Assembly: GCA_017624235.1 (NCBI GenBank) | Contig: JAGANL010000006.1 | Location: 62,001-126,000, forward strand | From: Lachnospiraceae bacterium | Lineage (GTDB): Bacteria > Bacillota > Clostridia > Lachnospirales > Lachnospiraceae | Direction of reading: 5' to 3' | DNA length: 64,000 nt | In this document: one piece after another, positions 3,686 to 20,116 of the stretch | Numbering within the stretch: position 1 is the stretch's first letter | Layout: each line of letters opens with the position of its first letter | Notes under the pieces: model-generated | The model's database searches: none | What the model was told of the DNA's origin: nothing | The model's input: only the letters and a program-made list of their open reading frames with translations | Made by a program: the position numbers and the translations under genes

Positions 3686-4657
3686 ATGAAGAAGATCATG
3701 TTATTGCTTGGAACACTGGGATTACTTGCCTGTATTCTGGCTGGCTGTGGCAGTCAGAGTACGGCGTCGGGTAAGAATGTAAAAATATTTCTTACCCTGA
3801 ATGCAATGGATACCTTCCGTCAGACTCTTGTGGATGCAGCGTCGGAGAGAGCGTCACAGGAAGGTGTGCAGCTGGATATCGCGGATGCGGAGGATGTAAT
3901 TGAAAATCAAGTGGCACAGATTAAATCTGCGGCAGAGCAGGGATACGATGTGATTTTGTGTGGAGCGGTATCCACGGATACGACAGTAGAATTGAAAGCT
4001 ACGGCAGGAGAAATACCGATTATCTTTTTTAACAGTTGTCCGAATGAGAAGCATTTGTCCGAAGGTCAGTATGTCTATGTCGGTTCCGATGAAAAGGTGG
4101 CGGGGCAGTTACAGGCAGAGTATGTATTGAAACAGTTTGCAGATAAAGATGAGATTAATGTAGTGCTGTTAAAAGGGCCAAATAGTCATTCTGCAACAAT
4201 AGGAAGAACCAGTGGTGTGAAGCAGGCGTTAAAGGCCAGCGGTAAGAAAATAAATTACGTATTTGAGGACAGTGCAAATTGGGATACAGAACAGGCAAAA
4301 ACACTGTTTGAACTGTTTTTGCAGACAGGCTCTCCGGTGGACTGTGTCATCTGCAACAACGATTCTATGGCACTTGGTGTTGTAGAAGCCTGCAAAGACA
4401 ATGGCATAGATCCAGGCAGTCTTCCGATTCTGGGTGTAGATGCCACTGCAGACGGCTGTGCAGCAATCCAGAGCGGCGAGATGGCATTTACCGTATATCA
4501 ATCGGGTGTCGGTCAGGGACAGGCAGCCATTGATATGGCAATTCGTATGGCCAGACAGTCAGGTACTGAGGACATGGAAGGCATTACAGAGGATGGCATG
4601 TATGTCTGGGTGCCCTTTGAAGCGGTAGACAGCAGTAATGTGGCGCAGTATCAGTAA
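3686..4657 (+). CDS. Orphan sugar-binding lipoprotein (periplasmic-binding family 4)
   Basis: A 323-residue RbsB/Peripla_BP_4-type binding protein with a lipoprotein signal (lipobox LAGC at about residue 18-21). Two Rossmann-like lobes are visible, with DVILCGAVSTDTT in the first and VDCVICNNDSMALGV plus ILGVDATADG in the second, typical of ribose/galactose/AI-2-type binders. GGAGG at 3671-3675, inside the end of the chemoreceptor gene, serves the ATG at 3686; an upstream in-frame TTG at 3677 is too close to it. No ATPase or permease gene accompanies it. Coupling to the chemoreceptor suggests it presents a sugar-like ligand to that receptor at the cell surface; this is inference from context. 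Confidence 0.85.
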   Translation: MKKIMLLLGTLGLLACILAGCGSQSTASGKNVKIFLTLNAMDTFRQTLVDAASERASQEGVQLDIADAEDVIENQVAQIKSAAEQGYDVILCGAVSTDTTVELKATAGEIPIIFFNSCPNEKHLSEGQYVYVGSDEKVAGQLQAEYVLKQFADKDEINVVLLKGPNSHSATIGRTSGVKQALKASGKKINYVFEDSANWDTEQAKTLFELFLQTGSPVDCVICNNDSMALGVVEACKDNGIDPGSLPILGVDATADGCAAIQSGEMAFTVYQSGVGQGQAAIDMAIRMARQSGTEDMEGITEDGMYVWVPFEAVDSSNVAQYQ

Positions 4658-8780: not shown

Positions 8781-9296
8781 CTAAAATAACTTTTGAGTTA
8801 GATACTGATAAATTTCCTGATTGTTCTTCTGCCAGTTGTCACATACGGCAGATGCCATTTCCTCGGTCGGCACGGCAAGCCGTATGGAAACAAGCTCCAC
8901 TCCCTTGTCCTTGGCCAGCAGTTCAGCCTCAAATTCGCCGTTTGTAGATTTGTAATAGTCAGAAAGAATCGAGACTTCATTGCGGAGCTCCAGTTCATTT
9001 TCCTGAAAAAAAGCATTGATTTCTTCCTTGATGGCATCACTGATTCGATTTTCAAAAAAGCGGAGTGTTTCCTGTCCCTCCGGTGTGATGACCAGATGGG
9101 TGCGGTTGCGGATTGAACGGGCATCTACCAGTCCGGTATCGATCAAATCTGCAATGGCCTGCTGCAGGGTCAGAAAATTGGTATATTCCTTTTCCAGAAT
9201 AAAATCTCCAACCTGAGCCTTGGTCAGCGGAAAAGCGACCCGGTCAAGCATATAAAGTACAATCAGCTTATATAAAGTCAATGGTTCCTGTGTCAT
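8781..9296 (-). CDS. DUF4364 family winged-helix-like protein
   Basis: 171 residues, matching the DUF4364 family common in Lachnospiraceae. The N-terminal part (LTLYKLIVLYMLDRV then LTKAQVGDFILEKEY) reads like a winged helix with a wing at NRTHLVITPEGQETL; the C-terminal half (about 85-171) is a mixed alpha/beta domain. A role as transcription regulator is plausible but unproven. AGGGGA upstream supports ATG 9296 over the farther in-frame ATG at 9359. It overlaps the end of the radical SAM gene by 29 bases and is followed after 24 bases by flagellin, so the three are probably co-transcribed. Confidence 0.8.
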   Translation of the reverse strand: MTQEPLTLYKLIVLYMLDRVAFPLTKAQVGDFILEKEYTNFLTLQQAIADLIDTGLVDARSIRNRTHLVITPEGQETLRFFENRISDAIKEEINAFFQENELELRNEVSILSDYYKSTNGEFEAELLAKDKGVELVSIRLAVPTEEMASAVCDNWQKNNQEIYQYLTQKLF

Positions 9297-17642: not shown

Positions 17643-17713
17643 AGCAGATAACGGGAATCGAACCCGCCTTTCCAGCTTGGGAAGCTGGCGTTCTACCGAT
17701 GAACCATATCTGC
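17643..17713 (-). tRNA. tRNA-Gly (anticodon CCC)
   Basis: 71-nt cloverleaf on minus: acceptor GCAGATA/TATCTGC with discriminator T, D arm with GGTA, anticodon stem CCAGC/GCTGG around TTCCCAA, and T arm with TTCGATT. No CCA is encoded. It has a TATAAT promoter just upstream. Confidence 0.95.
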
Positions 17714-17894: not shown

Positions 17895-18074
17895 TTAATC
17901 CCCTCCCGGCCCATCCTTTCGTGGTCTGGTAGATTCCGGCAATGGTTCGACGGATTCTGTCTCTTCTGCATTTTTGGAATTCTCAGGCAGATCAATGGTG
18001 GGAATATTTCCGTCGTCATAGTCATTTGCAGGCTGTTGACCGTTGGGAGTTGAGGTTATTTTCTCTTGCTTCAT
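17895..18074 (-). CDS. 59-residue acidic peptide ending GPGGD
   Basis: A small hydrophilic protein starting MKQEKITSTPNGQQ. It is rich in Asp, Glu, Pro and Asn, has the segment YDDGNIPTIDLPEN, and ends in PRKDGPGGD. There is no signal peptide, membrane segment or cysteine. The ribosome binding site AAAGGATGG lies on the 3' arm of a hairpin directly before the ATG, suggesting translational control. A longer in-frame start at 18173 would read through that hairpin and is less likely. The gene is downstream of a strong promoter and a structured leader and upstream of a second small peptide gene. Function unknown; a precursor peptide or an RNA-controlled small protein are options. Confidence 0.5.
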   Translation of the reverse strand: MKQEKITSTPNGQQPANDYDDGNIPTIDLPENSKNAEETESVEPLPESTRPRKDGPGGD

Positions 18075-18105: not shown

Positions 18106-18233
18106 AGATTACAGAAATTTATGCAGGAAGTCATAGCATTTGTGGAAAATTCTGATGCTGCCGGGCAGTTCATAGACGTGGCGCTGTGACAGTAAAAATG
18201 GAAAGAAAAATGGACGGTTAAGATTTACATAAG

Positions 18234-18325
18234 AAGCATCAGCCGCCAAGTGTTCTACGGGATAATCGATGTGTGAACCTAGACACTGGCGATACGTTGC
18301 CGCACTCCTCCCGGAACTGATGCTT
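18234..18325 (-). ncRNA. Candidate structured leader RNA with pseudoknot
   Basis: A 92-nt element begins at the expected transcription start of the minus-strand promoter. Its ends, AAGCATCAG (18325-18317) and CTGATGCTT (18242-18234), form a 9-bp closing stem. Inside, numbering from the 5' end: hairpin 22-25/30-33 with a GCAA (GNRA) loop; stem CGCCAGTGT (35-43) with ACAC-T-TGGCG (73-82, one bulge); and CGGGA (13-17) complementary to TCCCG (64-68), which sits in the loop of that stem and would make a pseudoknot. CTGATGC can instead pair with a second GCATCAG at 18158-18152, giving a possible switch. I could not match it to a known riboswitch class. Structure was found by eye. Confidence 0.45.
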
Positions 18326-18330
18326 TGGGT

Positions 18331-18359
18331 ATTATACATCGGAATGTTGGGGAGTGCAA
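18331..18359 (-). promoter_or_regulatory. Promoter of structured leader / small peptide transcript
   Basis: On minus, TTGCAC (18359-18354), 17 bases, TATAAT (18336-18331). The predicted start, near 18325, is the first base of the closing stem of the candidate RNA. Confidence 0.75.
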
Positions 18360-18451
18360 GAAACAGATATGCGTAGCATGACAAGGGTGTGCATTTCGTG
18401 TTGAATGCTATGTACTTTCAACGATATTTTATGAAACGAAAGCAATAAAAT

Positions 18452-18494
18452 AAAAAACCTGCAACTCCAGTATTTACAAGGATTTGCAGGTTTT
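18452..18494 (-). terminator. tRNA-Trp terminator
   Basis: Stem AAAACCTGCAA / TTGCAGGTTTT (18484-18494 with 18454-18464), followed on minus by TTTTTTA. It begins about 20 bases after tRNA-Trp and separates it from the small-peptide transcript. Confidence 0.8.
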
Positions 18495-18513
18495 CTCACG
18501 CATTATTCAGAAA

Positions 18514-18584
18514 CAGGAGCAGTAGGAATCGAACCCACATCGATGGTTTTGGAGACCACTGTTCTACCTTTGAACTATGCTCCT
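18514..18584 (-). tRNA. tRNA-Trp (anticodon CCA)
   Basis: 71-nt cloverleaf on minus: acceptor AGGAGCA/TGCTCCT with discriminator G, D arm with AAGG, anticodon loop CTCCAAA in a GTGGT/ACCAT stem, and T arm GTGGG/CCTAC with TTCGATT. CCA is not encoded. Confidence 0.95.
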
Positions 18585-18616
18585 ATATGCTTTGTCGACT
18601 AAAACCGACGAATGTT

Positions 18617-18802: not shown

Positions 18803-20116
18803 ATGAGCAAATATATACCTGGTAACCAGAAACATCTTTCTCTTGAGGATCGTAAGTACATTGAACGTTCTCTTAACTTGGGAACTTCTTTTAAAGATAT
18901 CGCAAGGTTCTTATGCAAAGATCCTACCACCATCTCGAAGGAAGTAAAGCTTCACCGGTTAAGTGACTGGTATCACAAGGGAACCTTTTATAATGCACAC
19001 AACTTCTGCATTCATAGGTATCACTGTAAGAAAACAAATGTATGTGGCAAGGTCATCCTCTGTAACATCAAATGTACGTCCTGTCCTACCTGCAATCAAA
19101 CCTGTGTTGATTTTGTAAGGGAACGGTGTAACCGCCTTGACAAGGCTCCTTATGTCTGCAATGGATGTCCGAAAGCCATTAATCACTGTACCATCGCTCA
19201 CAAGTATCGTTACGATGCAATCTTTGCTAATCGTATGTACAGAGAATGTCTGTCTACATCCAGAGCCGGCATTAATATGACCAAGCAGGAACTGCACAAA
19301 AAGGATATGATTATCACCCCTCTCATTTATCAGGGGCAGTCACCCTATCAAATCATTACAAACCATCCGGAACTGGATATGTCAGTCAGAACACTCTATT
19401 CTTATCTGGACGACGGCATTCTTACCGCAAGAAACATTGACCTGAAGCGCAAGGTTAAGTTCAAACCGCGCAAGGTACACAAAACGCAGATTAAAGACCG
19501 TACTGTTTTTGAAGGACGTATGTTCACAGATTTTCAAAAACTGAATCTTGACTCTTTTGCGGAAATGGATACAGTTCATTCTTCACAGGAATCCAAACGT
19601 GTCATCCTGACTTTCTTCCTGACCCGCGAAAAGCTATTTCTGGCCTTTATCATGAATCGCTGCACCAAAGGTGCCGTAAAGCTTATTTTTGACAAGCTGG
19701 AGCGTCAGATGGGAACATATGATTTTCTGACATTATTCAACACTATTCTGACTGACCGTGGAACAGAATTCGGAGCCCCTGAGGCTCTAGAGACAGGTAT
19801 TGACGGAATAGTCCGTTCAAGCATCTATTTCTGTGATCCTATGAGAAGCGGTCAAAAGGGCGGCATTGAGCAGGCACATACCATGCTCCGCATGGTTCTG
19901 CCAAAGAAAACCAGTTTTGAATTTCTCACCCAGTGGGATCTGCGTACTATCGTAGATCATATAAACTCCACTCCAAGAGAAAGTCTTGGTGGCCGCACTC
20001 CTTATGATGTGGCACTCGATAAATATGGCATTGATATACTAAAAGCACTTCAGCTTAGGCCGATTCCACCTGATGAGGTCAATCTGACACCTAAGCTGAT
20101 ACGCTTTAACCGTTAA
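18803..20116 (+). CDS. IS30-family transposase
   Basis: 437-residue DDE transposase. The N-terminal helix-turn-helix (about 10-55) has LSLEDRKYIERSLNLGTSFK and PTTISKEVKLH, typical of IS30. A cysteine-rich zone (about 70-135) with many Cx2-3C pairs probably binds zinc, a feature of some Firmicute IS30 relatives. The catalytic triad is visible as D in AEMDTVHSS, D in LTDRGTEFG and E in KGGIEQAHTMLR. AAGGAGG precedes ATG 18803. Full length with no frameshift, so it may be active. Cuts and joins DNA during transposition. Confidence 0.92.
   Translation: MSKYIPGNQKHLSLEDRKYIERSLNLGTSFKDIARFLCKDPTTISKEVKLHRLSDWYHKGTFYNAHNFCIHRYHCKKTNVCGKVILCNIKCTSCPTCNQTCVDFVRERCNRLDKAPYVCNGCPKAINHCTIAHKYRYDAIFANRMYRECLSTSRAGINMTKQELHKKDMIITPLIYQGQSPYQIITNHPELDMSVRTLYSYLDDGILTARNIDLKRKVKFKPRKVHKTQIKDRTVFEGRMFTDFQKLNLDSFAEMDTVHSSQESKRVILTFFLTREKLFLAFIMNRCTKGAVKLIFDKLERQMGTYDFLTLFNTILTDRGTEFGAPEALETGIDGIVRSSIYFCDPMRSGQKGGIEQAHTMLRMVLPKKTSFEFLTQWDLRTIVDHINSTPRESLGGRTPYDVALDKYGIDILKALQLRPIPPDEVNLTPKLIRFNR

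Follow-up and report, generated by a model that had tools for sequence, protein, structure and literature searches.

On the minus strand of a 64,000-nt stretch of a Lachnospiraceae genome (contig JAGANL010000006.1; this whole stretch is called the window here), promoter boxes stand directly upstream of a compact sequence that can fold tightly. A sequence-only reading of the locus had proposed a structured RNA with a pseudoknot and a possible switch. The locus thus raises the question of whether the RNA is a cis-regulatory leader or a gene in its own right, and through which of its parts it would act.

The element in the window

The boxes TTGCAC (18359-18354) and TATAAT (18336-18331), which are separated by a 17-nt spacer, are predicted to form a strong promoter of the sigma-70 type. 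We infer that it drives transcription of an element of 92 nt (18325-18234), whose ends pair in the 9-bp stem AAGCATCAG/CTGATGCTT. As described in the sequence-only reading, the element also contains a GNRA-type, GCAA-capped hairpin (18305-18292) and a 9-bp stem with one bulge (5+4 bp, 18291-18283 with 18253-18244). The features are given below, with the stems named P1 to P4 according to the structure shared by the homologues.

18354..18359, minus strand: -35 box TTGCAC, read from the sequence
18331..18336, minus strand: -10 box TATAAT, read from the sequence, 17-nt spacer to the -35 box
18234..18325, minus strand: the RNA element (92 nt), a copy of type A
18317..18325, minus strand: 5' strand of P1, AAGCATCAG, based on covariation
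18234..18242, minus strand: 3' strand of P1, CTGATGCTT, based on covariation
18306..18315, minus strand: P2 hairpin UCC-GGGA-GGA, a GNRA-type tetraloop and no pseudoknot strand
18292..18305, minus strand: P3 hairpin GUGCG-GCAA-CGUAU
18244..18291, minus strand: P4 arm with P4a CGCCA/UGGCG, P4b GUGU/ACAC and P4c CUAGG/CC(G)UAG
18152..18158, minus strand: second GCATCAG, outside the conserved element, taken as a chance repeat

In this copy the type-A head of P4 is the terminal loop UUCACAC...UAUC, and the fit of the type-A model spans 18222-18332. The 95-nt piece 18328-18234 folds with -35.3 kcal/mol (z -3.71), and none of 200 shuffled sequences was equally stable. The fold of the 191-nt stretch 18330-18140 is unremarkable (z -0.17; 77 of 200 shuffles were as good).

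The earlier view that the element belongs to no catalogued class was borne out, as a search of Rfam 15 left it without a match, both at gathering scores and at E up to 10. Nothing was found over the element in 32 homologue loci either, type-B copies included (Rfam 15, E up to 1). The tRNA hits in two of these loci (L016 and L197) reach no further than the padding at its 3' edge, and a Clostridiales-1 hit below the cut-off in L012 sits elsewhere in the locus. The RNA family is outside Rfam 15, and the element in the window is one copy of it. Separately, positions 4083-4151 (minus) of L197 match the Hammerhead type II ribozyme with 39.2 at a gathering score of 37.

As to the surroundings, the RNA is flanked on the same strand by genes for tRNA-Trp (18513-18585) and tRNA-Gly (17643-17713). 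An inverted repeat followed by T residues (AACCTGCAAATCC...GGAGTTGCAGGTT, approximately 18451-18493, minus), read from the sequence, is probably the terminator after tRNA-Trp. Beside tRNA-Trp, the ORF 18803-20116 (+) carries an HTH_38 domain, and its translation resembles what we take to be an IS30-type transposase.

A family with one junction and two P4 heads

A blastn search with 18150-18345 as the query against 299 genomes of the family gave about two dozen good partial matches. Leaving aside the match of the window to itself, the 21 strongest (L002-L022) stop at query positions from 96 to 138, short of the second GCATCAG, which is at 188-194. Among 397 sampled family genomes, the model R1 matched 61, and 59 of these matches are convincing. 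The other two matches (G415 and G118; L212, L213) are one near-identical stretch unlike the family RNA and were discounted as chance, while the 59 include two genomes with type B (G150, G203) and one with a fragment (G136, L196). Matching genomes have one convincing copy each, with a second, weak match (E=0.006) in G194. In the order sample 6 of 295 genomes were matched. Four of these matches are convincing, all within the family and one of them in the own genome, and two are weak. In the phylum sample 2 of 299 genomes were matched, the own genome and one with a 27-bit hit. A core pattern matched 104 stretches in GTDB genomes; among the 80 matches listed, most are titled Lachnospiraceae or genera or wider groups of Clostridia, and one Oscillospiraceae. 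Cultured strains are among the carriers of the pattern, such as Blautia parvula NBRC 113351, Hungatella hathewayi WAL-18680 and [Clostridium] citroniae WAL-17108. In the samples searched, the RNA is limited to one bacterial family plus a few phages. Within this family, the sampled genome of the same genus, G274, was matched by neither R1 nor R2 (the type-B model, see below). In G022, blastn aligned only the 3' part of the RNA (L023, approximately 1501-1532), which may be a deletion remnant. Further, the RNA sequences of L112, L145, L149 and L160 are similar to each other, as are those of L094 and L106 together with their neighbour genes, and these groups are consistent with inheritance within small groups.

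The structure shared by the copies is, as predicted from their sequences, a four-way junction made of the closing stem P1, the tetraloop hairpin P2, the hairpin P3 and the long arm P4, with hardly any unpaired bases between the stems. For the main analysis of covariation, 25 homologues were aligned with MAFFT and the structure was drawn by hand. In this set 94.0% of the base-pair cells hold and 14 of 30 pairs have changed on both sides; each value was reached by none of 500 shuffles, and pairing falls to 33-56% when the partners are slid by 1-3 columns. RNAalifold returned a nearly identical structure from the homologue alignment, with changes on both sides in 15 of 29 pairs. Two model-fitted alignments (98 and 67 distinct rows) gave 95.3% and 94.8% paired cells and two-sided changes in 23/30 and 24/30 pairs. 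Both alignments, mostly of type A, were shaped by the structure itself and share part of their origin with the 25 homologues. They are also unpruned, and some weak hits, copies of type B and the broken copy L183 remain in them; the figure from the 25 homologues is the cleaner one. Thus, the claim of a structured RNA now has the support of homologues, whose stems show compensatory changes, and in type A the junction P1-P4 is kept by such changes across genera.

The stems contribute differently. P1, with nine pairs in the model, is the most variable, with changes on both sides in seven of nine pairs in the 25 homologues and eight of nine in the model-fitted alignments, and at the junction a U and a G face each other in 25/25 aligned copies. 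P2 has three pairs, which changed on both sides in a few copies, and a loop of usually 4 nt, while P3 has five pairs in the window copy and is longer in others. Conservation is overstated in P2 and P3, since the pattern by which most type-A copies were found prescribes part of these hairpins. P4 comprises a 5-bp part with strong covariation, the nearly invariant GUGU/ACAC, and an inner stem whose sides seem to vary together as modules (UCGG/CCCGGAG, UAAG/CUUAG, UAGG/CCCGUAG). The terminal loop of P4 has UCA near its start in 120 of 136 copies and AUCC near its end in 104 of 136, and its middle varies between copies.

Among the weak matches to the family, some were recognised as a second type. 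Type B has P1, P2 and P3 as in type A and a different P4, with CAYGACWCUUUUUU followed by GCGURGGC and AGCGGWG in place of the type-A head pattern GGUGUC...UCAC...UAUCCC. In four type-B copies, 95.3% of the cells are paired, and both partners have changed in 14 of 32 pairs. The model R2, built from these four copies, matched 40 of 299 family genomes: nine carry type B, and in the other 31 the match lies at the known type-A place, the window copy (E=6.5e-10) and 30 further type-A genomes. A model from type B alone thus recovers type A, which joins the two in one superfamily. Seven of the nine type-B genomes lie outside the 61 of R1, and G150 and G203 had matched R1 through the same type-B copy. 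Within strict filters, none of the sampled genomes has both types.

The pseudoknot and the switch of the sequence-only reading can be judged from these copies. The strands proposed for the pseudoknot, CGGGA (18313-18309) and TCCCG (18262-18258), are indeed complementary in the window. As overlooked at that time, the GGGA is the loop of P2, and we examined this loop in 136 of 137 distinct type-A copies (L188 was not parsed, and eight loops were read by eye). It reads GGGA in 107 copies, GAAA in 13, GGAA in six, UUCG in two and seven other sequences in eight; this variety is undercounted, as most copies were found by a pattern fixing GRRA in the loop. Pairing with the pyrimidine stretch fails in 24 of the 26 copies with a 4-nt loop other than GGGA. 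The copies with GGGA permit it in 103 of 107 cases, but as both strands are nearly constant among them, they are no test of the pseudoknot. Since 128 of 136 loops are of the GNRA type and two are UUCG, P2 behaves as a capped hairpin and its loop as a cap. GGGA in 107 of 136 loops is, however, more uniform than a plain cap needs, and it is possible that this loop makes a tertiary contact in many copies.

The second GCATCAG (18158-18152), on which the switch was built, exists. We parsed 140 of 143 distinct copies of both types, broken ones retained, and looked in the 100 nt downstream for a repeat of the seven bases that end the 5' strand of P1. The repeat was found in one of these at most 140 copies, the window copy itself, and 0.7 are expected from shuffled flanks. 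The proposed mutually exclusive fold is not conserved across copies, and the repeat occurs at chance rate.

Gene type, genomic context and candidate partners

The copies repeat the layout of the window, with boxes of a predicted sigma-70-type promoter directly before P1. In the matching slot, scored as the 19 nt before P2, an exact TATAAT is present in 82 of 103 distinct copies found by pattern (3.5 expected from shuffles), and a TATAAT with one mismatch in 16 of them (30.6 in shuffles). The -10 box ends 12-15 nt before GTTC in 90 of the 98 copies with TATAAT (at most one mismatch), and a hexamer like the -35 box (at most two mismatches, spacing 16-19) precedes it in 47 of the 98, a count that has no control. 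At the other end, many copies continue into T-rich sequence behind the 3' strand of P1. On average 3.7 of the first eight bases there are T, compared with 2.2 further downstream, and in 55 of 140 copies five or more are.

Neighbouring proteins were compared at 106 loci on the basis of crude ORF calls, and no recurrent gene was found. The largest cluster, ABC-type ATPases, occurs at 17 of the 106 loci in scattered positions, and the next clusters at seven or fewer. Crude ORF calls placed a gene on either side of the RNA at 87 loci, once 19 loci at contig ends had been set aside. The nearest gene downstream runs antisense to the RNA at 53 of these loci. At the remaining 34 it shares the strand of the RNA, with a median distance of 136 nt and with 13 genes within 66 nt. 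In the window, the next ORF on the same strand after the RNA (17895-18074, minus) encodes 59 aa, ends in PRKDGPGGD and has no Pfam match over the cut-off. Its relatives occur in a few family genomes, with 75% identity in G274. We considered that the RNA regulates this small ORF and rejected it: relatives are found in G274, G031 and G033, which are matched by neither R1 nor R2, and in G019 the relative lies 34 kb away from the RNA.

Of 137 copies, 23 have a tRNA gene at a distance of at most 300 nt. A first background of 1.2% was too lenient, because positions near the RNA had been omitted from it; the intergenic gaps of the same loci gave 14 of 159, so that the excess is about twofold. In five copies (L016, L139, L197, L198, L222) a tRNA gene on the same strand begins at the padded end of the hit, within approximately 15 nt of P1, and in these it is plausible that RNA and tRNA form one transcript trimmed by RNase P. 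From the counts of the P1 repeat, the P4 loop, the P2 loop and the tRNA genes we dropped L077, L078, L091, L212, L213 and the second hit in L096; L183 was also dropped from the last three, and L140, L176, L195, L196 and L197 from those of the two loops.

Of 2.9 million viral contigs, two were matched; searches of these contigs with three additional patterns, one designed for type B, found nothing. The first, L184, carries a full-length copy (94.7 bits) beside genes for a transcriptional regulator and a terminase. The second, L183, whose phage nature is taken from its viral collection and a reading of its ORFs, has only the 5' half (9157-9273), and the break in the P4 loop is possibly a recombination point. 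Two host contigs have full-length copies in similar surroundings: L167 among phage-type genes (helicase, endonuclease, primase-helicase) and L174 near a phage-type anti-repressor gene. Judged from their gene content, the DNA around three full-length copies (L184, L167, L174) is thus of phage or prophage-like type. There was no match to the window or L184 copy in 50,697 phage records and none to the L099 copy in 72,556 plasmid records, and the neighbours of five named host copies resemble ordinary chromosomal genes as read from their translations, with no family search. That phages carry the RNA suggests a link to some process on which they depend.

Hfq and CsrA were considered as partners, and both are disfavoured. 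The samples consisted of 40 carriers (two of type B, G150 and G203) and 40 genomes unmatched by R1 or R2, the latter including G022 with its possible remnant. A host Hfq was found in none of these 80 family genomes, while the same search was positive in 5 of 14 control genomes. CsrA exceeded the cut-off in 10 of 40 genomes with the RNA compared with 22 of 40 without it, and is thus rarer in carriers. Moreover, the P2 loop has no GGA in the 13 GAAA and two UUCG copies, among others, which speaks against a CsrA sponge.

Proposed role and comparison with known systems

We favour, with moderate confidence, a standalone small RNA gene with its own promoter, whose product would act in trans through the P4 head, with a protein or ribonucleoprotein as the likely partner, and would not be a cis-regulatory leader. 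The standalone part of this reading is supported by the covariation, the promoter boxes, the T-rich 3' flank, the single convincing copy per matching genome, the lack of a recurrent neighbour and the antisense downstream genes. Against it we count the patchy distribution (59/397 by R1, the sampled genome of the same genus unmatched) and the loci with a close downstream gene on the same strand. The predicted sigma-70-type promoter would give a transcript of about 95-110 nt, folding into the four-way junction, with P1 as its closing stem, P2 and P3 as short hairpins with capping loops, and the conserved head on P4. Transcription may end in the T-rich sequence which follows P1 in many copies, and RNase P could trim the 3' end in the five copies next to tRNA genes. 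Our best guess is that the P4 head would then contact its partner, probably a protein. A protein or ribonucleoprotein is the likeliest partner because the conserved bases are part of a structured arm and do not form an open stretch, and because P1 above all varies in sequence yet retains its shape. More tentatively, with somewhat less than even confidence, we propose a modular trans-acting RNA, in which one four-way-junction chassis has interchangeable P4 heads and the head is swapped as the partner changes between hosts and phages. Two head types on one chassis offer a direct way to ask what the head recognises.

The main rival, which we consider unlikely, is a regulatory small RNA that base-pairs with its targets, using the P4 terminal loop (UCAC...UAUCC) or the U-rich stretch of type B as a seed. 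The own promoter, the size, the T-rich sequence and the conserved loop ends (UCA, AUCC) would suit such an RNA. However, conservation concerns an elaborate fold and not a short unpaired seed, the P4 loop is variable in its middle, and the 80 genomes yielded no Hfq, although pairing could also be independent of Hfq. A riboswitch or attenuator, in which a ligand-binding domain controls the downstream gene, corresponds to the earlier reading. Of that reading the structured RNA and the promoter stand, and the compact junction, the conserved loops and the 13 of 87 loci with a same-strand gene within 66 nt would be in line with it. A riboswitch is nevertheless very improbable, since no downstream gene or pathway recurs (crude ORF calls), the downstream gene is mostly antisense, and relatives of the downstream ORF occur in genomes without the RNA or, in G019, far from it; a conserved alternative pairing is also absent.

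An element of phages or other mobile DNA that was left in host genomes and serves the phage would explain the full-length copies in L184, L167 and L174, the broken one in L183 and the patchy distribution. We regard this as distinctly unlikely, with two matches in 2.9 million viral contigs, none by the other patterns, none in the phage and plasmid records for the copies searched, and chromosomal-looking neighbours around the five named host copies. Lowest in probability we place a processed leader or spacer of tRNA operons, which the 23 copies with a tRNA gene nearby, and especially the five with one at the padded hit end, would suggest: 114 of 137 copies have no tRNA gene within 300 nt, and the excess over intergenic gaps is about twofold.

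Our literature search found no description of the RNA; its coverage was partial and excluded supplementary data, so prior publication is possible. Of four sequence strings used as queries, one gave matches, on lice, fleas, other ectoparasites and a plague protease. The RNA may figure as an unnamed model among the 3161 intergenic structured-RNA candidates from human microbiomes (Fremin and Bhatt 2021, PMC8040213), in whose main text, in the portion available, neither Blautia nor Roseburia nor any word beginning with Lachno appears.

Carriers of the family, among them cultured strains, are bacteria often met in the guts of humans and animals, and the strongly structured RNA that they share is absent from Rfam 15.

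Among known systems, riboswitches share with this family the compact junction fold with conserved loops, and the family differs from them in having neither a recurrent downstream gene nor a conserved alternative pairing. The protein-sponge RNAs of the CsrB/RsmZ type are standalone and have a GGA-containing hairpin, as is the case here, but in some copies of this family the GGGA loop is swapped for GAAA, GGAA or UUCG. Finally, raiA and Clostridiales-1 are orphan standalone structured RNAs of bacteria. The element in the window is set apart from them by the absence of a match in Rfam 15 at E up to 10, and it resembles them in being strongly structured, in occurring in Clostridia and in having no fixed neighbour gene.
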